DNA from: Blastopirellula retiformator
Lineage (GTDB): Bacteria > Planctomycetota > Planctomycetia > Pirellulales > Pirellulaceae
DNA length: 64,000 nt
Direction of reading: 5' to 3'
NCBI RefSeq assembly: GCF_007859755.1
Contig: NZ_SJPF01000001.1
Span: 1,414,082 to 1,478,081, forward strand
Notes under the pieces: model-generated
What the model was told of the DNA's origin: nothing
The model's database searches: none
Seen by the model: only the letters and a program-made list of their open reading frames with translations
Shown: positions 42,406 to 59,561 of the stretch, piece by piece
Layout of the letters: each line of letters begins with the position of its first letter
Numbering within the stretch: position 1 is the stretch's first letter
Program-made: the position numbers and the translations under genes

Positions 42406-42932
42406 GGTGGAAGCGGTCGCAGAGGAACAGGCGGAAACGTACTCAATTGCGCCAGCAGGAGAAGAAGCGGGCAGGGGAGGTTCGCGGTAAACCTGGAAGA
42501 GGCGATTCGAACCGGTTAGGTTTCGCGAGAAGTACTAGCTCGAGGGTGCTGTTTGAGCGGCTCGATAGGTTGAGAGGATCGAGCGTACTCGGCTAGTTGA
42601 AACCGAGGGATTGTGTGGACGGCGGTTTAACCAAAGCGACGGGCGAAGCGAAGGGAGCGCCATTGGGCGTACCAGGTTCGTTTGGCGATGTCGCAGGAAA
42701 AACGTCGTTTTCGTGATCCGTCTGGCATGGCTTTGTCCTCCGCGAATAGGATTGTCATCTCTCTTCGCATAGCGGAAAACGAATCTCGCTTTACGGGAAA
42801 AAATCGACAGAAATTCGAGTTTCTCCCCAGGACGATTGCCGCAGGAACGGACATATTTCGACTGGCGGATGCAATCATAGGGGGCGAACCGTTTATGAGG
42901 AGGATGGTTCGCTCGACCAATCGGCGCGACTG
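42406..42932. other. 527-bp intergenic stretch, no gene or structured element seen
   Basis: I see no family-like protein, tRNA or strong hairpin. Short frames exist on both strands, but their codon use and composition (for example Met/Arg-rich with no hydrophobic core) do not resemble genes of this genome. Part of it may be the promoter of DUF4291. Confidence 0.4.
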
Positions 42933-44234
42933 TTACGAACCGGAGTTCCAGAGATCAGGCTTCGTTTCGGCGAGGATCTCGCGAATGTTTTCCCGATCCT
43001 GCGGCGTTAGATGCGTGAACTCGGGATCGCCGTCGGTCAAGATTTTCTGCAGCCGATCGACGATGTAGCGTTTGGCGCCGTCAGGCAATTGATCGAACTG
43101 CGGAGAATAGATCATGTAGCTGCAGGGATAGCGAAACAGCCGCAAGTGCAGGTCAAGATCGCGCAAGGATCGCTCCTTGGAATCTTGGGGACCAACCGCG
43201 GCGAACTCGCGTGCGAATTGCGATGTGCCTTCCACTGGCGACGTCAGCGGGAACTCGTCGGCGAACAACATGTACCGAATCAACTTGTCGCAGGCGTTGT
43301 GGATCCGCCGCTCGGTCGTATCGCTGACGTAGTCGGCCGGTCGTTCGAGCGCCTTGTTCATCACCTGATCATGATGCTGGGCCATCCGCGATTCAAAGTT
43401 GACGAGCGTCAAATAGTTTTGCATTTGCGTCTGATGTTCCAGCACCATCAGCGCCACGATGTCGCTGTGCGAAGTCAGGTAAGGATCCGTTTTGAGACGT
43501 TCCGATAGGTCGGTCACGTTGGCGCCCGCCTCGCGATCGATCTTCTCGGGGAAGTCGCGATCCTTGGAGATGACGTTCCCCATGTGACGCATGTCGCCAT
43601 GCGTGCCGGTGACGTACCAACCGCCCCAACGGTCTTCAAACGGACTGCTGTGATCGGTGGTGAAGGTGCCGGACCCATAGTGCGGCTGACCGGCCGGATT
43701 AACGAATGCCGAGCGAATAAGCCCGCCGGGGACATTTTGTGTACGGCTGGAAGCGTGACACGAGAGACACTGACCCTGATCCTGCACAAACTTCGGCTTC
43801 TTGTCCTTCTCTTGCGAGAGAGTGTAGAAGACGGCGCCTTGCTGCGGATCGGTCGTCATGATTTCGAGCACGTCGCCCCGCTGGACCCAACCGATGTAGG
43901 TCTGGTCGTTGAAGTAGAGCGCCCGCGGGCGCCGCGGCGTGATGCGCGATAGCTGAAAGCTGGTCTTCGAGTAAACCAGGACCTGCGACTCGGGCGAGAT
44001 TCCTAACTCTTCCAACACCGCTTCGAGATAACCATGCTCGTCAGAATAGTTCAGCTCGGTTTTCCCGTCGTCGAGCGCTTGCTGCAACTGCGCAATCGGA
44101 TCGTCTCTCAGGTTGGCGCCGTAGTTGATCGGCTCGTGCTCGAAATTCAGCTGGGCATAGCTGGGCGTCGTCATCAGCAACCAGGCGGCGATGACGGCGG
44201 AGAGAGTGAAAACGGCGGGCGAGCTGGCGTTCAT
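42933..44234 (-). CDS. Secreted protein with a single c-type heme motif
   Basis: This 433-residue exported protein starts at ATG 44234, which opens a signal peptide (MNASSPAVFTLSAVIAAWLL, cleavage near SYA-QL); the longer frame adds a basic leader and is rejected. One heme-binding motif CLSCH lies in FVQDQGQCLSCHASSRTQN (about residues 155-175). The downstream GGWYVTGTHGDMRHMGN supplies His/Met residues that could be the distal ligand. I recognise the arrangement from planctomycete and proteobacterial cytochrome-like proteins of unknown role, but not a named family. The chain is otherwise soluble. It is monocistronic and borders the decayed cluster. Confidence 0.68.
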   Translation of the reverse strand: MNASSPAVFTLSAVIAAWLLMTTPSYAQLNFEHEPINYGANLRDDPIAQLQQALDDGKTELNYSDEHGYLEAVLEELGISPESQVLVYSKTSFQLSRITPRRPRALYFNDQTYIGWVQRGDVLEIMTTDPQQGAVFYTLSQEKDKKPKFVQDQGQCLSCHASSRTQNVPGGLIRSAFVNPAGQPHYGSGTFTTDHSSPFEDRWGGWYVTGTHGDMRHMGNVISKDRDFPEKIDREAGANVTDLSERLKTDPYLTSHSDIVALMVLEHQTQMQNYLTLVNFESRMAQHHDQVMNKALERPADYVSDTTERRIHNACDKLIRYMLFADEFPLTSPVEGTSQFAREFAAVGPQDSKERSLRDLDLHLRLFRYPCSYMIYSPQFDQLPDGAKRYIVDRLQKILTDGDPEFTHLTPQDRENIREILAETKPDLWNSGS

Positions 44235-44321
44235 GCGGCGGCAAGCGTAAAGGGAAAGAACTTCTCTATCCTTTACGGGGTAACCGCTTGGGCTCGTCAA
44301 GTCAAGCTGAGATCGGCGAGG

Positions 44322-44717
44322 CTATCGCCAAACCGCATGAAGTTCGAACGGATACATCTCATTTCGCCGCTTCGCATAGTCCAATCGCGAGAGATTGGCG
44401 GTCGTTACCCCCGGCGTATCAACCCGGAAGAAGTGGGGGCAAACGTCGGCGTACGCGGCCAACGGAGCGTTGACCCCTTTGGCGACGATAATTCGGAAAT
44501 CGGTCGGCGCCAGATCGCAGTGCGTCAGTTGTCGCAGCGACCAGGGGGCGGTGCGGTGCGTGGTGATTTGCAGCGTGAGCCCAGTCTTAGTCTGGACGAT
44601 GGCGGTCGGACTCATGTCGTATTCAGTCTTGCCGCCATGACGCGGTTGCTCTTCGGCGAAACGACCTTCATGCACCGAGATGACCTGGCATTCGACCTGC
44701 AGCGGAGCGCCATGCAA
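44322..44717 (-). pseudogene. MlrC-like (M81) protein, C-terminal fragment
   Basis: About 131 codons match the C-terminal domain of MlrC/M81 metallopeptidases: HGAPLQVECQVISVHEGRFA, then the MSPTAIVQT strand, TAPWSLRQL, the DFRIIVAKGVNAP segment and the terminal VDTPGVTTANLSRLDY. Full-length members are about 480-500 residues, so the metal-binding N-terminal three quarters are missing. The family sequence stops at base 44717, and the next bases on the other strand are the interior of an aminotransferase. There is no normal start. The natural C-terminal end is present. Confidence 0.8.
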
Positions 44718-44718
44718 G

Positions 44719-45891
44719 CGATCTCGCTATTTCTATGATGTCGACGGCAACTGCCGCGCCGACTACACGCTGGGCTGGGGCCCGCTGATCGTCGGCTCGA
44801 ACCATGCCGGCATCAACGCGGCGGTCGCGCGTCAGTTGGAAAAGGGGTACACCTACGGCTGCCAGCATATCGCCGAAATCGAACTGGCCGAACTGATCGT
44901 CGATTCGGTTCCCGGCGTCCAGCAGGTCATCTTCTCGAACACCGGCACCGAAGCGATTCAGTCGGCGATTCGCATTGCCCGGGCTCATACGGGCCGCGAC
45001 AAGATTCTGAAGTTTGAAGGGCACAATCACGGCTGGCTGAACAACGTGCTCGTTTCGTACCGGCCGAAGATCGTAGATTCGACCTTGCCGCAAGCGACCT
45101 GCGGCGGGCAACCCGAGAGCGAATTCACCGACACGATGGTGTTGCCCTGGAACGACATCGACGCCCTCAAAGACTTCTTCCACCGACATGGGCACGAATT
45201 TGCCTGCGTGCTGACCGAGCCGGTCTTGGCCAACTCGGGCAGTTGCATGCCGCGGCCCGAGTACCTGGAGACGCTGATCGAGCTCTGTCGCGAGTATGGC
45301 GCCGTCTCAATCTTCGACGAGGTGATCACTGGTTTTCGGATCGCGCTGGGCGGAGCACGCGAGTACTTCGGCTTAGAGCCCGACCTGTCGGTCTACGGCA
45401 AGGCGCTTGCCGGCGGCTTCACGATGTCAGCGGTTGGCGGCCGGGCCGAGATGTTTGAAGTCCTCCGCGACATGCGGACGATTCACTCGGGCACGTACAA
45501 CGGCACGACCTTCAACATCGTCGCCGCGATCGAGACGATTCGCGAACTACGGAAGCCAGGCACGTACGAGCGAATGAACGCTCACGGTAAAGCGATCGCC
45601 GAGACGTTGACCGCCTCGGCGGCCAAATATGGCCTGGATGCGGCGGTGAGCGGCGTGGGAACTGTTTTTTCGGTACACTTTGGCGTCAAGCAGGCGCCGC
45701 GCGACTATCGCGAGATGACCCGCACCGATATGGAAACCTATGGTCGCTTCCGAGCGGCGATGCTCGACAACGGTGTGCAACTGTTGCCCGACGCTCGCTG
45801 GTATGTCGGAACGCAGCATGACGACGCCGTTCTCGAGCATGTGATGGAAGCGATTGATGCGTCGATGAAGGAAACGATGGGATGCAGTTAA
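44719..45891 (+). pseudogene. HemL-type (glutamate-1-semialdehyde-like) aminotransferase lacking its N-terminus
   Basis: This class III PLP aminotransferase runs about 390 codons from RSRYFYDVDGNCRADYTLGW to the C-terminus. The PLP lysine (YGKALAGGF), the SNTGTEAIQSAIRIARAHTG and IFDEVITGFR motifs are intact. The first 35-45 residues of the family, which normally precede the YFYDVDGN motif, are missing, and no in-frame ATG exists between the breakpoint and residue 100 or so; the only upstream in-frame ATG (44680) lies inside antisense MlrC. Expression would need a start within foreign sequence. Its stop overlaps the FAH gene by 10 bases. Confidence 0.75.
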
Positions 45892-46733
45892 TTCAATTCG
45901 GCCCGCTGGGCAAAGAAAAGCCAGGGCTGCTTACCGCCGCTGGCGTGCGGAAAGATCTCAGCTCGGTCGTTGAGCGTTATGATCGCGAGTTCTTTCAATC
46001 AGGCGGCTTGGCCAAGTTGGCCGAAGCGGCGCGTTCGCTCGATTCGTATCCCGACATCGCCGAAGACGTGCGTTGGGGAGCGCCGATCGCCCGCCCGGGC
46101 AAGGTGATCTGCGTCGGTTTGAACTATGCGGATCACGCCAAAGAGTCGGGGATGGCGATTCCGGAAGAGCCGATCATCTTCTTCAAAGGTACGAACACCG
46201 TCGTCGGGCCGTTTGACGACGTGTTGATTCCCCGGAAGAGCGAGAAGTCGGACTGGGAAGTCGAACTGGGGGTCGTGATCGGCAGAGACGCGCGCTATCT
46301 CGATAGCGTCGAGCAAGCGGCGGAGCATATCGCCGGCTACTGCATCTCGAACGACGTCTCGGAGCGTCATTTTCAACTAGAACGTGGCGGCCAGTGGGTG
46401 AAGGGGAAAAGCTGCGATACGTTCAATCCCCTCGGCCCGTTCCTGGCGACGACCGACGAGATTGCCGACGTCAGCGACCTGGCGATGACGCTCGACGTCA
46501 ACGGCGAGCGCATGCAGACCGGCAATACGAAGACGATGATCTTTGATCCTTGCTTTGTGATTCACTACCTGTCGCAGTTTATGACGCTGGAAGCGGGCGA
46601 CCTGATCTCGACCGGCACTCCGCCGGGCGTTGGACTGGGGATGAAGCCGCCGCGGTTTTTGAAGGCGGGAGACGTGATGACCCTATCGATCGCCGGCTTG
46701 GGGGAACAGCGTCAGGTTTGCAAGGACGCTTAA
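45882..46733 (+). CDS. Fumarylacetoacetate hydrolase family protein
   Basis: This 283-residue FAH-fold enzyme probably acts on a beta-diketo or acylpyruvate-type sugar-acid intermediate. The metal site is visible in WEVELGVVIGRDARY and NDVSERHFQLERGGQW, with the catalytic KGKSCDTFNPLGPFL and STGTPPGVGLG loops. The closest-looking members are the ureidoglycolate lyase / 2,4-diketo-3-deoxy-L-fuconate hydrolase group. Length is normal. ATG 45882 overlaps the aminotransferase stop by 10 bases, so both once belonged to one catabolic operon; the enzyme itself looks intact. Its stop overlaps by three bases the stop of a HEAT fragment on the other strand. Confidence 0.9.
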   Translation: MQLIQFGPLGKEKPGLLTAAGVRKDLSSVVERYDREFFQSGGLAKLAEAARSLDSYPDIAEDVRWGAPIARPGKVICVGLNYADHAKESGMAIPEEPIIFFKGTNTVVGPFDDVLIPRKSEKSDWEVELGVVIGRDARYLDSVEQAAEHIAGYCISNDVSERHFQLERGGQWVKGKSCDTFNPLGPFLATTDEIADVSDLAMTLDVNGERMQTGNTKTMIFDPCFVIHYLSQFMTLEAGDLISTGTPPGVGLGMKPPRFLKAGDVMTLSIAGLGEQRQVCKDA

Positions 46734-46966
46734 GCCTCCTTGCTAAGCGCCAACAACGACTGCGCCGCCCGAATGCGGACGTCGAGGTTGTCGTCCTCCA
46801 GCAGTTGCGTCAGGGCTGGAATCGCCGCCGAGATTTGAGCCTGCCCGCAGAACTCGGCGGCGTAGACGCGAATCGCCGGATCGGCATGGTGCAGATCGGC
46901 CTGCAGCGCTACTTTCGCGTCGGCATCGCCGCAGCGAGCCAGCGCCGCGTGAAAATAGACCAGGCA
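46730..46966 (-). pseudogene. HEAT-repeat protein, C-terminal fragment
   Basis: The minus strand encodes 78 residues forming about two HEAT units: AALARCGDADAKVALQADL, ADPAIRVYAAEF and AIPALTQLLEDDNLDVRIRA, ending AAQSLLALSKEA and a TAA at 46732-46730. The frame is closed upstream by TGA at 46967-46969, immediately adjoining the 3' end of the desuccinylase-like gene in another frame. No start is visible. Such repeats end many planctomycete sulfatases and HEAT proteins; I read it as the tail of a deleted gene. Confidence 0.7.
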
Positions 46967-47865
46967 TCACGCGACTCCGTATCGGCAGGAAATTCCAAAA
47001 TCACTGCCAGGCAGTCGCCCACCGCGACGGCTGGCAAGACGCGACGGGTGATTAGGCGGCCGTGCTGGGTTGCGGTGACGATGGTTGGATTCTGACGCTG
47101 CGTGTTAAAGATGCGTCCAAGCTCATCTCCAGGAGCGACCCTCGCATCGATGGGCGCAGTCGCCTCGTAGTAGCCGGCGATCGGAGCGGGATAGTTGGTC
47201 TGCAGGTGTCCGCTCGCATCGCGGTCATCTTCGACAACGCAGCGGCAAGGCTCTTCCGCCTCTGCGGTCGCTGAAAGCATATTGAGCTGCGTCATGACCC
47301 GTAGGCAACCGTCGACGTAGGCGGCGACTCCAGCGCCGTAAATCGCCGGCATGGCGGCGTCGCGTGCGGCCGACAACGAGCGTCCCTCCAGACGCAAACT
47401 TGTTCCCCATACGATCGGCAGCCCAAAGGCATGAGCCATTTGACGCTGCTCTATTACCGCTTCACCGGGAACGAGCATGTAGCCGACCAGCGGCGAGATA
47501 TTGAGGGCCTGACCTCCGGTATGCAAGTCAATCAGATAGTCGTCCGATTCAATCAATTCGTTGACGGCGAAAGCGATTTGCTCGGTAGGGCGACCATGCG
47601 GCGTGCCGGGAAAGACGCGGGCCAGGTCCAAACCGTCGGGGCTGTTGCGGCTGTGAATTTGGAATGCCGGCTTGTTGGCGGCGTCCGCCAATTGCAGATA
47701 GTACTGGAGCAGTTCCGACTCGGTGAACTTCATCAGGTACGGGGTCAGCACCACCAGCCCGCGACGTGCAGGTCGCCGCTCGGATGAAGCGGCGTGCAAA
47801 TGGCGGATATCAAGCGAGTTGGCATACGTGCGCTGCTCTACAAAGGAGAATTCTAGCGATTGCAA
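46909..47865 (-). pseudogene. In-frame chimera: DapA-family piece fused to succinylglutamate desuccinylase/aspartoacylase C-terminal part
   Basis: The 318-codon frame opens at TTG 47865. Residues about 36-65 (GLVVLTPYLMKFTESELLQ, then YYLQLADAAN) are a clear DapA/NanA-type aldolase strand-helix; the preceding TYANSLDIRHLHAAS may be the helix before it. From KPAFQIHSRNSPDGLDLARV onward the protein is a zinc deacylase of the desuccinylase/aspartoacylase type (PTEQIAF, LIDLHTGG), but its N-terminal GxHGxE zinc motif has been lost. The last residues after CLAVILE read into antisense HEAT sequence. Two metal ligands are gone, so activity is unlikely. The frame survives by chance or very recent fusion. 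Confidence 0.75.
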
Positions 47866-47915
47866 AACAGACCGATCCGAAGATGGTCGGCCTGCGTCTG
47901 GTCAGGCGAAGTTGG

Positions 47916-48116
47916 TCAGTTGAGCTCGAAATTTTTTTGCTTTGGACGATCTCCTTGATTAACCGTCAACGGGTCGAGCTTTGACTTGCTGTTGTACTGA
48001 GCCGGCAAGATCTGTTTGCGTTGGCTGGCTGGTTGGCCCGGCTCGCTAACCGGCATGTCCTCTCCCTCGAACCCTTCGATTTGGATGTCGTACGTACCGG
48101 GCATCAGGGCGAACCG
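47916..48116 (-). pseudogene. Carboxypeptidase-regulatory-like protein, C-terminal fragment
   Basis: About 65 residues, from RFALMPGTYDIQIEGFEGED to the stop, carry the ending typical of small planctomycete lipoproteins with a carboxypeptidase-regulatory-like domain: a PGTY strand, a long loop, then ILPAQYNSKSKLDPLTVNQG and NFELN. Normal proteins are about 130-160 residues and start with a lipoprotein signal, which is absent. The first residues overlap the last codons of the sialidase fragment in another frame. Assignment rests on pattern recognition of the YNSKSKL / FEL ending. Confidence 0.55.
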
Positions 48117-48445
48117 TCCTGCAACCGGAGCAGGGAAACCGACATGTCATTTTCTTTGCCGATCTTGGGGACCAGCGGCTCATCCACTTCTTCCCAGGTC
48201 GCACCGCCATCCTGCGAAATGCAACTGGCGAGATAGCCAAGGGCGTTGTCGCCGGCATGTTTGCCTCGGAACCGGGTGTAGACGTAGAGAATCGATCCAT
48301 CCTTTCGCGTGACAAACGCCCCTTCCGAGTTGCGTGGATTATTGGGGCCGGTCTCCTGGACAAAAACGGTTTGGGGTGGCCCGGCCAAAGCGGCAAGGGG
48401 CAGCGACACGGCGAAAAATAGGCTTAGCGGAAGTAGGCGGGTCAT
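48104..48445 (-). pseudogene. Sialidase-like (BNR) protein, N-terminal fragment
   Basis: A 113-codon frame has a good signal peptide (MTRLLPLSLFFAVSLPLAAL) followed by the opening of an exo-sialidase family protein: NSEGAFVTRKDGSILYVYTR, then CISQDGGATWEE (an Asp-box) and NDMSVSLLRLQDG. Full proteins are about 350-400 residues. Family sequence ends at LRLQDG, and two codons later a TGA stop appears because the DNA continues in a different gene's frame. The fragment could still be secreted but lacks the propeller and active site. Confidence 0.75.
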
Positions 48446-48635
48446 AAGATTCGGCTTTCGCGAAGGTGGCGGGAGCTCGGTTTGAGGTCAGTGACGACTT
48501 GTTTTTGTCGTCAAGATATCGGCGAAAATGTCGACAGCAATACTTTTGGGCAAAAAAAGCCCACGCACTCTTGTTGGGGGCACGTGGTTGTGGTCTCTTT
48601 GGTGGATATCGGGATTGCCTTCGATTTTCCCCCGT

Positions 48636-49494
48636 TTAGGGCAAGCTGCTTAGAAACAGGCGTAGGTAATTGCCGGCAAAAATGTCCCGAATATCGTTGT
48701 CTGCGTACCCCCGGTTGGCCAGCGTCGTCGCCAGCTGTTGGAGGTCGGCGATCGAGTTTAAATCGTGCGGCGTTTGCTCGGTTCCGAATCCTCCATCGAG
48801 GTCGCTGCCGATGCCAACGTGACGCGTGTTGCCGGCCAACTGGCAGATGTGATCGACATGGTCGGCCGTCGCGTTCACAGAGATCGACGCTGGGGAGGTC
48901 TCGCCTCGGACCCAGCCTGGCTTGAGCATCCAGCCGTCAAACGCCATGCCGATCACCGCGCCGCGGGCAACGAGCGCACGGATCTGGTCGTCGGAGAATT
49001 GGCGATTGCCGGAGACCGAGATCCCACCACATCTCGGCCTGCTCTGGCGAGTAAATCGGATCAGCGCCTTCCATCGCCAGGATCACGCCGATTGGTTCCA
49101 CATCGCTTTCAGCGGATGCGACGAGATGGGCTTGGAGTTGTGCGGCCGTGCGAATCAGTTTGATCTCGCCCAACTGGTCGAGCAGTTGATAGTAGGCGAC
49201 TTGCCCCATGCCGGTCGCGTGGGCGATCGTCTGGTTGCGAAAGTCGAGATCGACGCGGGAAAAACCGTGCTCTGGGCAGACCTCTGGTTTCGAACGGGTA
49301 AGGACCGTCGCCAAGCAAACTTGGATCCCGCCTCGCTTCATTTCTGGCAGCGTCACGGTAACGTGGCCGCGCGATGGATGGTCGGTCATGTGGGCTTCAT
49401 GGCGACGCATTTCTTCCAGTGATTGCGTCAGGTCGCGATTCCACTGCAGTGCATTCCAGGCCAAATCGAGGTGGGCGTCGAAGATTGGTCTCAC
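48636..49494 (-). pseudogene. Membrane dipeptidase (M19), internally deleted and frameshifted
   Basis: The 5' part (ATG 49494) encodes the start of an M19 dipeptidase, with the zinc motif DAHLDLAW and the later LAMEGADPIYSPEQAEMWWD. Near 49010 the reading jumps: in the next frame the DNA continues with GNRQFSDDQIRALVARGAVI and GMAFDGWML through HVGIGSDLDGGFG to the stop at 48636. In intact relatives about 75 residues, including conserved His ligands, lie between WWDLGLR and GNRQFSD. The deletion is out of frame, so translation stops about 24 codons past the junction. Both ends of the gene are otherwise well kept. Confidence 0.8.
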
Positions 49495-49540
49495 GCATAG
49501 TCCTTCGTGTTTGAGTCGCAGGGGAAGGCAGGTATCTAGA

Positions 49541-50653
49541 TCATGTCAGCAGGCCGCGGGCATCGACGCTGTCTTGTTCGATTCCGTCCGCCGTTTGCAG
49601 GTAGGCGTGGTTCTGCAGGTTAACGCAGGGGCAAATATGGTTGGGAATGATCGTGACTCGCTCGCCCAGTTGGGGCAGCGAATCGCAAGCGGCGAAGTCG
49701 ATTTCGCCATGTTCTTCGCTAAGACGAACGATCTGTGCGTCAGGATATTCGACGACATGCCCGAAGCCCGTTTCTGGTTGCAGCACATTGCGGTCGCTGG
49801 TGAGCGTCTTGTTGCCGGCGTCGATCACGCATTTGCCGGGAACCGCAGTGCTGACGACGGTCGCGATCACCGCTGCGGCGCAGTCGTCGAGCGTGCAATA
49901 GCCGGCGCGGACCGTATTCATGTCGTTGTAGATATAGGTGCCGGGTCGGATCTCGGTTTGGCGGCGGATCATGTGGGATTGAAACGCGGTGGGCGTCGAG
50001 CCGCCGCTGACGATGTTTGCGGTCAGCCCGTGCGCTTCCCAAAGAGCGATCGTTTCGGCTAGACGCTGATCAATCTGCGTCAAAATTTCGGCCTGCTGAT
50101 CGGCGGGCGCCCAGACGTGACCGGGATAGAACAGAATCCCGTCCAGCCGCAGCGATTTGCCTGCCTGGGCGACTTGCTGGGCCAGTTCTAAGGCGATCTT
50201 CGGAGTAGCGGCGCCGGTGCGAGGAAAGCCGATGTTCAGGTCAATCAGGATGCCAATTGTCGAGCCTGCCGCTTCGGCCGCCGCGGCCAAGACGCTGATC
50301 CCATACGACGAATCGACCGCCACGCGAATGGTGTGCGACTTGGCAAGCTCGGCAACGCGGCGCCGACGATCGGGATCGATCGCGGGGTAGGCGATCAGGA
50401 GGTCGTTCGACTCGGCGGCCATCACCTCCGCTTCTCCCAGTTTGGCGACCGTCAGGCCGACGCTCCCGTGTTCGATCTGCATCCGGGCCAGCCGTCGCGA
50501 CTTGTGGGTCTTGGTATGGGGGCGAACCTGTAGGCCATGTTGCTTGGCGTAGCAGTGCAATCGCTGCAGGTTGTGCTCAATCGTCGGCAAATCGATCACC
50601 AGGGCCGGCGTAGCGATTAACTCCTGCCTAGCTCGTTCAAATCGGTTTGCCAC
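49541..50653 (-). CDS. D-threonine-aldolase-like (D-TA/DSD1 family) PLP enzyme
   Basis: This 370-residue alanine-racemase-fold PLP enzyme belongs to the D-threonine aldolase / D-serine dehydratase-like group. The PLP lysine lies in VRPHTKTHKS (about residues 37-46). The C-terminal metal site HICPCVNL, the domain linker and the PGTYIYNDMN segment are present. The start is GTG 50653, with AAGGA (50663-50667) nine bases upstream and homology starting at once; the longer frame is a proline- and arginine-rich leader. It is intact, unlike its neighbours, and with the dipeptidase and FAH genes suggests a cluster for unusual amino acids or peptides. Confidence 0.88.
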   Translation of the reverse strand: MANRFERARQELIATPALVIDLPTIEHNLQRLHCYAKQHGLQVRPHTKTHKSRRLARMQIEHGSVGLTVAKLGEAEVMAAESNDLLIAYPAIDPDRRRRVAELAKSHTIRVAVDSSYGISVLAAAAEAAGSTIGILIDLNIGFPRTGAATPKIALELAQQVAQAGKSLRLDGILFYPGHVWAPADQQAEILTQIDQRLAETIALWEAHGLTANIVSGGSTPTAFQSHMIRRQTEIRPGTYIYNDMNTVRAGYCTLDDCAAAVIATVVSTAVPGKCVIDAGNKTLTSDRNVLQPETGFGHVVEYPDAQIVRLSEEHGEIDFAACDSLPQLGERVTIIPNHICPCVNLQNHAYLQTADGIEQDSVDARGLLT

Positions 50654-50845
50654 GGGCGATGATCCTTTGTCGGTCGGTGAGGTTGCACCGTCATCTTCGG
50701 GAGTGAACGGGGAAGGGGAGCGGAAGTTTGTCCGCCAGCGCCAATCAGGGTAGACGATGCCGTGCCCTGATTCCACCAGCGGAGATTGCCGCAACTTGCC
50801 GTTTGTTGCCTTTACGGCGTTCTCCGAGGAGCAGAGGCGCGCACA

Positions 50846-50882
50846 AAAAAAATGGCGACGCCGTTCCAATGCGGCGTCGCCA
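50846..50882 (-). terminator. Strong rho-independent terminator of the dienelactone hydrolase gene
   Basis: GGCGACGCCG (50855-50864) pairs perfectly with CGGCGTCGCC (50873-50882) over an 8-base loop. On the minus strand the stem is followed by A and then eight T (A-run 50846-50853). It lies 27 bases after the dienelactone hydrolase stop. Confidence 0.9.
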
Positions 50883-50909
50883 GTAGCAGCAAGCGGCTGT
50901 GAAGTTACG

Positions 50910-51803
50910 CTACTTCGGATCGAGCTCTTTGTGGAAGAACTCGAGCGTGCGGCTCCAGGCCAACTGGGCCGCCGCTTCGTCGAAGCGCGGGGTGGTGTCG
51001 TTGTGGAAGCCGTGATTGACCTCGGGATAGACGAAGGACTCGAACGTCTTGTTGTTCTCTTTCAGCGCCTTTTCAAACGGCGGTGCGCCATCCAGGATTC
51101 GCTTGTCGAGTCCGGCGTTTTGAATCAACAACGGAGCTTTGAGCTTCCTCACGTCGGCGAGATTGGGTTGCCGCCCGTAGAACGGAACCCCAGCGTCAAC
51201 CACATCCGGCAGACGGATCGCCACCTGATAGACCATGCCGCCCCCAAAGCAGAAGCCGACCACGCCCAACTTGCCGGTCGAGTCGGGCCGCGCGTCCAAC
51301 CACTTCGCCGCTGCGACAAAGTCGTTGATCATTTCGCCTTGATCCCGTTTGGCCTGCATCGCCCGGCCATCGTCGTCGTTGCCGGGATAACCGCCGAGCG
51401 GCGTCAGTGCGTCGGGAGCAAACGCCAGAAAGCCGGAGACGGCCAGTCGGCGGGCGACATCTTCGATATATGGATTGAGCCCGCGATTCTCGTGAATCAC
51501 AAGCACGGCGGGGAACTTGGTTCCTTGGCTTGGCTTGGCGAGCAGCCCTTTGATCGTGCCGCCGCCATCCTTCGACTCGTACGAGACCATCTCGGTTTTG
51601 ATCCGCGGATCGTCCGGTTTAACTTCTTCCGCCCAGGCGTAGTTGGGGGAAAGGCTGGAGAGGAGCGACTCCACCGTCAGTCCCCCCACGGCAAAGACGC
51701 CCAGCTTGCGCACGTAGTCGCGCCGCGAAAGTCTTCCGTGGGCGTAGTCGTCGTACAGGTCGAGCACTTCCTGTTGAAACTCGGAGGCTTGCTTGCGGGT
51801 CAT
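50910..51803 (-). CDS. Exported dienelactone hydrolase family protein
   Basis: This 297-residue alpha/beta hydrolase of the DLH family begins with a cytoplasmic helix and a twin-arginine-like export segment ([17 protein letters not shown], about residues 26-42). The catalytic triad is visible: Cys in [10 protein letters not shown], Asp in NAGLDKRI and His in EVNHGFHND. The oxyanion region [20 protein letters not shown] matches the family. Its natural substrate is unknown; many planctomycete members act on esters or lactones outside the cytoplasm. It is monocistronic with a strong terminator. Confidence 0.9.
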
Positions 51804-57588: not shown

Positions 57589-58497
57589 TCACGCCGCCTG
57601 ACGATGGTAGTGCTTCAACACTCCGCCAAGTCGTTCACAACAGGCGACCGCACCGATCGACAGGACATCGGGTTCCGGCTCGTTCGACCTTCCAGCGGAG
57701 AATTGTCTTTCCCCTGATGCGGCCGTTCCGCGTGATAGAAACCGACAAATTCTTTCACCAAGTAGTCCATATGCTGCTCGCCAAACACCACAAAATGATC
57801 CAGGCATTCGCGCTGCAGCGTCTGGATAAACCGTTCGACGAACGCGTTGGTGTTGGGTGATCGGTAGGCCGATTTCACGACCCGAATGTCCGCGGCCTGG
57901 AACGCGTCGTCAACCTTGGCCGTGAACTTCTTGTCCCGATCATGCATCAAGGTTTCGATGGGTAGGTCAACTGACTTCACGTGCTCCAAGAACGCTTCAG
58001 CTTGCTGCATGGCCCACTCTTCATTGGGATGAAACGTTGACGGCGCGATGTAGACCTGGCGGGATTCGACATGCAGGAAAATCAGCAAATACAGATCCCG
58101 CCAGCCCTTGAGCGTCAGCACCCGCTTGGCGTAGAAGTCACATTGCCAGAGCGTGGCGGCATGCATCTTCAGGAACTCGTCCCACGTTCCTTCCCCGCGC
58201 TTGGGACCTGGCTCGAGCCCGTTCTCCTTGAGGATATTCTTCACGGTGTTGCGTGACGGCGGCTTGATGCCAAGCTTCTTGAGCTCTCCCATGATCCGGG
58301 TGTACCCCCAGTCGTTTTCTCGGGCGAACCGAATGATCAGTTCGCGGATCTCCTCTTTGGTTCGGGGGCGTCCTTTTCGAACTTGCTTGACGCCGCCCGG
58401 CTTCTTCGATTCGCGAATCCAACGGAGAATTGTACTTGGCCCCACAATGGTGACGATCTCGTGAACCGCCTTTCCCAGCTTTGCCCCGAACTTCACG
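57589..58497 (-). mobile_element. DDE transposase (integrase-core, rve) with truncated N-terminus and C-terminal frameshift
   Basis: About 300 residues of an integrase-core transposase begin abruptly at [20 protein letters not shown]. An HTH part ([45 protein letters not shown]) is followed by the catalytic core with Asp in [11 protein letters not shown], Asp in [10 protein letters not shown] and Glu in [14 protein letters not shown]. Near 57682-57690 a one-base shift breaks the end: the family's closing [20 protein letters not shown] and HYHRQAA lies in the adjacent frame and stops at 57589. The first 50 or so residues are missing, and the frame instead reads in from the integrase. No terminal inverted repeats were identified. 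Confidence 0.75.
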
Positions 58498-59391
58498 AGG
58501 CGGTGAGCGACGGAAATCGGATCGACGCCCCCTTTGGTCAGTGCCTCCGTCGCAAACGAGTGCCGGGCGCCATACGCGATCACGCGGAAGCCGACCGCTT
58601 TACTAACGCGGGTCAGCTTGCATTTGATCGAATCTTTGGTCCAGGGCCGGCCTCGCTGATTCCGAAACAGGGCTCCGGCAGGGCGATCCTTGGCAAGACG
58701 ATCGAGAATGGCTTTTGCATCCGGCACCAGGTAGATCACCCGCGGTTCGTGTTTCCCCTTCGATTCATCTGCGGGGAAGATGACGAGATCACCGTGCAGC
58801 TGACGGGCCTCGATCGACCTGGCTTCGAGAGGGCGGCAACCGGTTAGGTAGAGAAAGTCGAGCAATTCCACGAGCGGGCCAGATGTGTTTTCTCGGATTT
58901 GCTTCCACTGTTGGGCCGTATAAAAGACGTCACGGCGTTTTCGCCGTGGCTTCTTCATGCCGGCGATCGGGTTGCGGGGGAGATATTCTTGTTCAACGGA
59001 CCAATTGAGCATGCGTTGGACGATGCCCACGGCGTCGTTTTGAGCAGTCGAGCCGATGCCGAGGCCCTCGTGCCATTTTCTGACTTGATGGACTTGCAAC
59101 TGCGACGGGCGAAGCTGTTTGCCGACGCTTTCGATGAAGGACTTCAGGTGGTAGAGATGGCGACTGTAGGTGGCTGGCTTGCGGTTTTCCTGGCACTAGT
59201 CGAGATAGGCCTTGGATAGCTCGTAGAGCGTGGTCAGGTCGCTTTTGACCTGCTGCTGATCGGCCATTAATTCGTGGAATTTGGTATGGGCGGCTTCTCG
59301 GTCTTTGCCGAGGGAAATTTGACGACCGGCGAAGCTGCAGTACCAGCTTTTTGGTCTGTTTGCGGAAGAAGGGTTTGGGCTGCCGCGGCAT
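58498..59391 (-). pseudogene. Tyrosine-recombinase integrase, broken and fused to a transposase
   Basis: The gene starts at ATG 59391 (MPRQPKPFFRKQTK). Three lesions are visible. An A5 run at 59348-59352 shifts the frame before the SWYCSFAGRQISLGKDRE segment; one A fewer would restore it. A TAG at 59198-59196 interrupts YELSKAYLD[14 protein letters not shown], in frame with the rest. Near 58497 the sequence leaves the integrase just after [15 protein letters not shown] and SVAHRL, before the catalytic Tyr, and continues in frame as a DDE transposase. Catalytic Arg ([12 protein letters not shown]) and His-x-x-Arg-like residues remain. Its position 97 bp from tRNA-Pro fits an integrated element. 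Confidence 0.8.

Positions 59392-59483: not shown

Positions 59484-59561
<78 letters not shown>

Follow-up and report, generated by a model that had tools for sequence, protein, structure and literature searches.

In a 64,000-nucleotide stretch of the Blastopirellula retiformator genome (contig NZ_SJPF01000001.1, positions 1,414,082 to 1,478,081; G000:C1:1414082-1478081, hereafter the window), a gene cluster that three congeners keep was found as a row of sharply cut pieces. The interval 42,901-50,911 of the window holds 8.0 kb, compared to 36.4 kb in the nearest relative, and the order of the pieces is retained. We consider it likely that this is a lineage-specific loss in progress, in which illegitimate recombination, acting repeatedly while selection is relaxed, removes a dispensable and probably catabolic cluster. 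By comparison of the sequences, the cluster was intact in the relatives, the direction of change could be set for most of the deletions, the deletions were in clear local excess, and the remnants carried no detectable decay.

The cluster in three congeners

The genome under study (G000; 6.2 Mb in 10 contigs, 97.3% complete) was compared with three genomes of the same genus, G001, G002 and G003, with a completeness of about 99%. G002 was the nearest relative, with ~84% identity in long matches near the cluster compared to ~80% for G003, and G003 and G001 were therefore used as outgroups. A 7-kb query covering 43.5-50.5 kb of the window returned an ordered series of matches over ~23-24 kb in both G002 and G003. 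The gene order in G003 was that of G002 apart from a short piece that is displaced, and G001 kept the cluster genes, with the right-hand part located ~100 kb away and inverted. The cluster proteins of G002 had near full-length matches in both G003 and G001, and every remnant aligned to part of a longer G002 open reading frame (ORF). The G002 genes comprise Rrf2, MlrC/M81, class-III aminotransferase, FAH, GDSL lipase, HEAT, PALP and SDR; desuccinylase, sodium/solute symporter, DapA, BNR proteins, DUF1559, GntR/FCD and M19 dipeptidase; and 3HCDH, amidohydrolase, a second DapA, a D-threonine-aldolase-like enzyme, SDR and MocA. Judged from these Pfam names, the role of the cluster is probably catabolic and its nature would be accessory.

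An earlier note on this DNA, made from its letters alone, had described sharp and apparently recent deletions in a catabolic cluster at 44322-49494 and had called for an alignment with the intact cluster of a relative. The alignments with G002 and with the nearly identically ordered G003 cluster bore out the sharp and apparently recent deletions, and every broken piece that the note had listed (MlrC, aminotransferase, HEAT, DapA-desuccinylase, sialidase head and dipeptidase) was found by alignment to G002. The deletion pattern proved wider than these limits and extends from 42.9 to 50.9 kb. At least 12 deletions were counted, namely ten gaps of at least 300 bp, one of them split in two by a piece of DapA, and a 222-bp loss within M19. 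Their sizes range from 0.2 to 12 kb, and together they removed ~28 kb.

Direction of change and local excess

A gap was scored as a polarised loss when it spanned at least 300 bp with at most 260 bp on the other side, and when at least 50% of the extra DNA was matched anywhere in 500 kb of G003. Over 464 kb, with G003 taken as the outgroup, this lineage had lost DNA in 14 of the 36 gaps that were short here, and none of the six gaps that were short in G002 was a G002 loss. Nine of the 14 losses are consecutive and lie at 42.9-49.5 kb; when 14 losses were placed at random 5,000 times, the maximum in 17.5 kb was seven. Between 42.9 and 50.9 kb, nine of the ten gaps of at least 300 bp had at least 80% of the lost DNA matched in G003, and the tenth, of 12.2 kb, had 47% matched in the examined G003 stretch. 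Insertion in the relatives rather than deletion here was rejected for most of the cluster, since the long form is common to G003 and G001. For 20 of the 36 gaps, less than 20% of the extra G002 DNA was matched in the examined G003 stretch, and these are either G002 insertions or sites where synteny with G003 is broken (G003 covers 55% of the G002 sample). A further gap at 42.4-42.6 kb, where G002 has a TPR gene, belongs to the poorly G003-matched gaps and was excluded from the count.

The same was seen when genes were counted. Among 228 genes conserved between G002 and G003, 37 were partial or absent here, a few of them marginally so (34 under a stricter rule), compared to 2 of 194 in the reverse test, and within the cluster 24 of 27 conserved genes were broken. 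A 180-kb sample of a second contig, C2, gave 12 of 85 conserved genes partial or absent versus 4 of 79 in reverse. The cluster is the densest deletion site in the ~10% of the genome that was examined, and the process is also seen elsewhere on C1, the contig of the window, and on C2. A deletion-prone DNA state, one of the causes suggested in the earlier note, is therefore not needed, even though this stretch is the densest.

Remnants and whole genes

The pattern begins with deletion 1 at 42901-42946, which removed ~0.4 kb of G002 with a 123-aa ORF, and 91% of this DNA was matched in the examined G003 stretch. The gene at the left edge (42933-44300, minus strand) is near-complete, has no Pfam match and shows 79% amino acid identity to G002. 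Deletion 2 (44201-44322, ~1.0 kb) took an Rrf2 regulator and a 175-aa gene. The MlrC (M81 metallopeptidase) remnant (44322-44727, minus) retains the C-terminal 133 of 494 residues (362-494 of G002) and abuts the class-III aminotransferase (44731-45891, plus) across deletion 3, a blunt loss of 1,731 bp at 44728. Relative to the longest G002 ORF, the aminotransferase lacks 51 codons at its start; the DNA match begins at codon 52, and the new ORF starts at 44680, in antisense MlrC. The FAH-family hydrolase (45882-46733, plus) is whole, with 283 of 283 aa. Deletion 4 (46732-46761, ~1.36 kb) removed the GDSL lipase gene, and the HEAT-repeat remnant that follows (46733-46957, minus) holds the C-terminal 77 of 286 residues (210-286). 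Deletion 5, again blunt, removed 2,556 bp at 46957 with the PALP and SDR genes.

To the right, the succinylglutamate-desuccinylase/aspartoacylase-like remnant (46958-47656, minus) has lost its N-terminus, and its domain match starts at profile position 43 of 192 compared to position 1 in G002. Deletion 6 (47656-47660, ~2.38 kb) took the sodium/solute symporter and part of DapA. Two DapA remnants follow (47660-47832, minus; residues 92-131 and 1-23 of 302). Deletion 7, of 220 bp, lies between the two, and their matches have 8 bp in common (47758-47765), which may be microhomology. DapA and desuccinylase are fused in frame in a chimera with one open 318-aa ORF at 46909-47865 on the minus strand. 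Deletion 8 (47832-47918, ~1.3 kb), which was pooled with deletion 7 in the polarised count, removed a BNR-repeat gene. Next comes the tail of a 167-aa protein (47918-48107, minus; residues 99-167); it had been called a regulatory-domain tail, and the tail is present but the name finds no Pfam match. Deletion 9 (48107-48113, ~2.74 kb) removed the DUF1559 and GntR/FCD genes, and only the head remains of the BNR/sialidase-like gene (48113-48460, minus). The M19 dipeptidase remnant (48636-49507, minus) keeps residues 24-189 and 261-386 of its 386, and deletion 10, a 222-bp loss near 49012-49017, puts the two parts out of frame with each other.

Deletion 11 (49507-49541, ~2.7 kb) took the 3HCDH, amidohydrolase and second DapA genes. 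The D-threonine-aldolase-like gene (49541-50654, minus), which together with FAH had been thought whole, has complete alanine-racemase N and D-Ser-dehydratase domains in a 1,114-bp match to G002, but the G002 start (MDRVVNRF...) is not preserved. The start was lost exactly at the edge of the 12.2-kb deletion (50620-50720, minus), and the gene may now start elsewhere, given that the frame is open upstream. Deletion 12 itself (50654-50911) removed SDR, MocA, GntR and other genes of G002, and a whole dienelactone hydrolase (50910-51803, minus) forms the right edge. Among the ORFs and Pfam matches viewed, nothing between the pieces was recognised as an insertion sequence, with no dedicated search for such elements being run.

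The pieces of MlrC, desuccinylase and M19 are found in open frames, and the chimera of DapA and desuccinylase reads as a single ORF, as would be expected if the short ORFs and the chimera were retained as new functional small proteins. We regard this as highly improbable. None of the three congeners has these proteins as short genes, a point that the earlier note had asked to be looked at, the M19 join is out of frame, the desuccinylase match has lost the beginning of its profile, and the open frames are explained by recency.

Real deletions or assembly artefact

An assembler that skipped sequence and joined distant pieces would create deletions that are unreal in the organism. Such an artefact would fit the lack of clear decay in the remnants, the completeness of 97.3% versus 99% in the congeners, the sharp gaps on two contigs and the break in a highly conserved gene on C2. 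Assemblers merge sites that have sequence in common. The flanks of 39 joins were compared with each other in G002 and gave a mean similarity of 10.5, versus 10.7 for random pairs. Ten cluster joins scored 8-14, with the 95th percentile of the control at 15, so the flanks of these ten resemble each other no more than random pairs do. The join inside DapA and that of the 12.2-kb deletion lay outside this test, and one non-cluster join (80.8 kb) scored 25.

The lost DNA was then sought in G000 by DNA searches with C10:2633315-2638190 and C10:2640001-2660000 of G002, which cover deletions 1-11 and the start of deletion 12. It was not found elsewhere in G000, including the other contigs, among the 40 candidates scored in each search (of 351, 204, 163 and 132), and only short or weak matches lay outside the cluster. 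These were a dispersed motif of ~160 bp at 41 sites, three matches that were both short and weak, and six further short ones, all within the symporter gene and probably to paralogues. The ~160-bp motif (L038:10350-10510) lies inside a DUF1559 gene that has a methylation motif at its N-terminus, and its 41 listed places in G000 presumably reflect the conserved N-terminus of a large family.

Further, a skipping assembler would not choose genes, yet the broken genes were less conserved than the whole ones. Outside the cluster the identities were 76.4 and 83.9%, respectively (21 versus 261 genes, p = 1.4e-4), with genes at a coverage of 0.75-0.85 left out (3 of 228 on C1; 4 of 286 pooled outside the cluster). 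The concentration of nine of 14 events in one cluster also speaks against an artefact. Because the ten cluster joins in the test lack shared sequence, the lost DNA was not found elsewhere as queried and the losses are biased to less conserved genes, we favour real deletions filtered by selection, and the assembly collapse that the earlier note had listed among the causes appears unlikely.

Age of the remnants and selection on the lineage

The rate of replacement substitution (dN) in eight remnants, with 1,356 codons, was 1.94 times higher on this branch than on the G002 branch (bootstrap confidence interval 1.47-2.55). Without the aminotransferase, which may still be working despite its truncation, the ratio was 2.05 (1.57-2.90). 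The intact genes gave a ratio of 1.85 (1.62-2.11) over 10,073 codons, and the substitution counts exclude three rows labelled intact that were on the wrong strand or in the wrong frame (G002 local 20116, 24156 and 76406). The remnants contained one stop in 1,356 codons and 17 codons with partial gaps, due to frameshifts or alignment noise. On the G002 branch, the genes that are remnants here had replacement to silent counts (N:S) of 50:119 versus 278:948 in intact genes (p = 0.05), which shows that the same genes evolve faster there too, and the comparison from branch to branch gave no remnant excess of replacement change (p = 0.46). With no clear excess of amino acid change in the remnants once this faster evolution is allowed for, the losses look recent. 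From the upper limits, and with ~0.47 silent substitutions per site assumed for the branch, we estimate the time that the remnants have spent without constraint at ~5-10% of the branch at most.

Replacement change, taken against silent change, was also raised in the intact genes of this lineage compared to G002 (N 506:278, S 1191:948, p = 1.6e-5). This suggests weaker selection on genes in and near the window in this lineage.

Joins and mechanism

Microhomology at the joins was measured by two methods against G002, whose divergence blurs the values. By the first method, 39 joins were near the control (control mean 0.71). By the second method, with 31 joins, at least 3 bp of microhomology was found at 8 of 24 joins outside the cluster versus 1 of 120 simulated joins, and at none of the seven joins in the cluster. 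The DapA-internal join with its 8-bp overlap is not among these seven, and the methods differ for the M19 join, with 4 bp by the first and 0 by the second. Inspection of the junctions, as the earlier note had proposed, thus revealed little homology in the cluster, and its suggestion of repeated recombination or end-joining fits this result.

No Ku was found in any of the four genomes of the genus, by a search that was positive in one of 14 named genomes (B. subtilis), and Ku-dependent end-joining was rejected. Loss of mismatch repair was rejected as well, as mutS1 is present in all four genomes. A deletion hot spot at the terminus was also considered. Two DnaA-like matches were seen in G003, both below the family cut-off, one at the contig start and a stronger one at 2.42 Mb, and the GC skew was positive over most of 1.13-1.63 Mb and of 3.03-3.27 Mb. 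An origin at the contig start would place the cluster, at 1.39 of 6.43 Mb, away from the terminus.

The join pattern suits RecA-independent illegitimate recombination or slippage. In this lineage the cluster, kept in the three congeners, would have become dispensable. Such recombination or slippage would then have deleted ~28 kb one by one, in at least 12 events, and relaxed selection would have let the deletions become fixed. What was left includes a whole FAH gene and a D-threonine-aldolase-like gene whose domains are complete.

A single event could leave a similar picture if, by template switching, a replication fork or a repair polymerase jumped ahead ~12 times over 36 kb. Most deletions would then have arisen together and produced collinear shreds with near-blunt joins. 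The order and orientation of all pieces are retained, the remnants seem to be of one young age within wide limits, the nine polarised losses are consecutive, and several joins are blunt. Serial deletions, however, retain order and orientation equally well, the eight junction stretches that were tested for templated filler gave only short chance matches and no nearby template, and shorter series of deletions at other places suggest that the process was a repeated one. We judge the single event improbable; if true, it would be a bacterial counterpart of template-switching chromosome rearrangements.

Other sites

The earlier note had reported the same signature at 34.1 kb and 58.5 kb. The calcineurin-like phosphoesterase at 34.1 kb lacks ~785 bp of internal sequence that is present in G002, and this gene had no match in the examined stretches of G001 and G003, so that the signature there holds relative to G002 only. 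At 58.5 kb the claim was not borne out, and the site is a mobile-element composite. The ORF at 57615-59099 (minus) carries tyrosine-recombinase (phage integrase) and HTH/rve transposase domains, adjoins tRNA-Pro at 59487-59561 and has no clear counterpart in G002, where the flanks alone match clearly. It has the appearance of an integrated element that was disrupted by a transposase or became joined to one.

Three consecutive sharp losses (~4.8, 1.2 and 0.7 kb of G002) were observed at C2:194360-194979. They cut a gene set of WD40/PSCyt1, PSCyt2/PSD1 and DUF1501.

Discussion

A number of observations weigh against serial loss of a dispensable cluster. The one-by-one order of the deletions is our own reconstruction, and a single genome fits both this order and a single event. 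All joins come from one assembly of one strain, and in the polarisation a G003 match was accepted at any position, with the same position not demanded. The remnants have no clear neutral decay, which is expected if the losses are recent and equally if the joins are artefactual. On this branch alone, N:S was 106:149 in remnants versus 506:1191 in intact genes (p = 2e-4). The DUF1501 gene on C2, 96% identical between G002 and G003, is broken here to residues 269-390, and in the C2 sample alone the bias to less conserved genes was not significant (p = 0.17). Finally, the homology at the cluster joins, with 0 of 7 at 3 bp or more, is below the 6-15 bp found at 19 of 30 Salmonella deletions in the available text of Koskiniemi et al. 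2012 (PMC3386194).

With these points considered, the case is most likely an unusually dense example of a known process, the bacterial loss of unneeded genes. It would represent an early stage of gene loss, in which ~12 sizeable deletions preceded any detectable excess of replacement substitutions in the leftover pieces, and the order, rate and joins of deletions would thus be measurable in a 6.2-Mb genome. In literature searches that required all terms, nothing was found on serial deletions of gene clusters or on deletion rate and end-joining together, and among papers on planctomycete genome reduction or gene loss none apparently describes this case, judged from listings.

Of the known systems, microhomology-mediated break-induced replication would yield several low-homology joins per event, according to the portion of the source available (PMC2621351). 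Here, there was no templated filler in eight stretches, and the order and orientation of the pieces were retained. Koskiniemi et al. 2012, in the text available, described spontaneous and partly selected deletions of 2-67 kb (with an assay floor of 2 kb), inferred them to be RecA-independent, and found deletion rates that differ more than 200-fold by position (PMC3386194). Of their 30 Salmonella joins, 11 had 4 bp of homology or less and the remaining 19 had the longer stretches given above, compared to none of the seven cluster joins with at least 3 bp here, by one method and against a diverged reference.

A further likeness is to the erosion of dispensable genes and young pseudogenes. In the accessible part of Kuo and Ochman 2010 (PMC2916853), 346 of 378 Salmonella pseudogenes had a single inactivating mutation, most commonly a short deletion (141 of 346) or a stop codon (131). 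The remnants here differ in that they were cut by large deletions and hold one stop in 1,356 codons. The same text names deletions as the chief erosive force, states that the youngest pseudogenes are quickly lost, and infers that full removal occurs mostly by large deletions that include neighbouring genes. The cluster described here resembles that erosion, with deletions as the main force.

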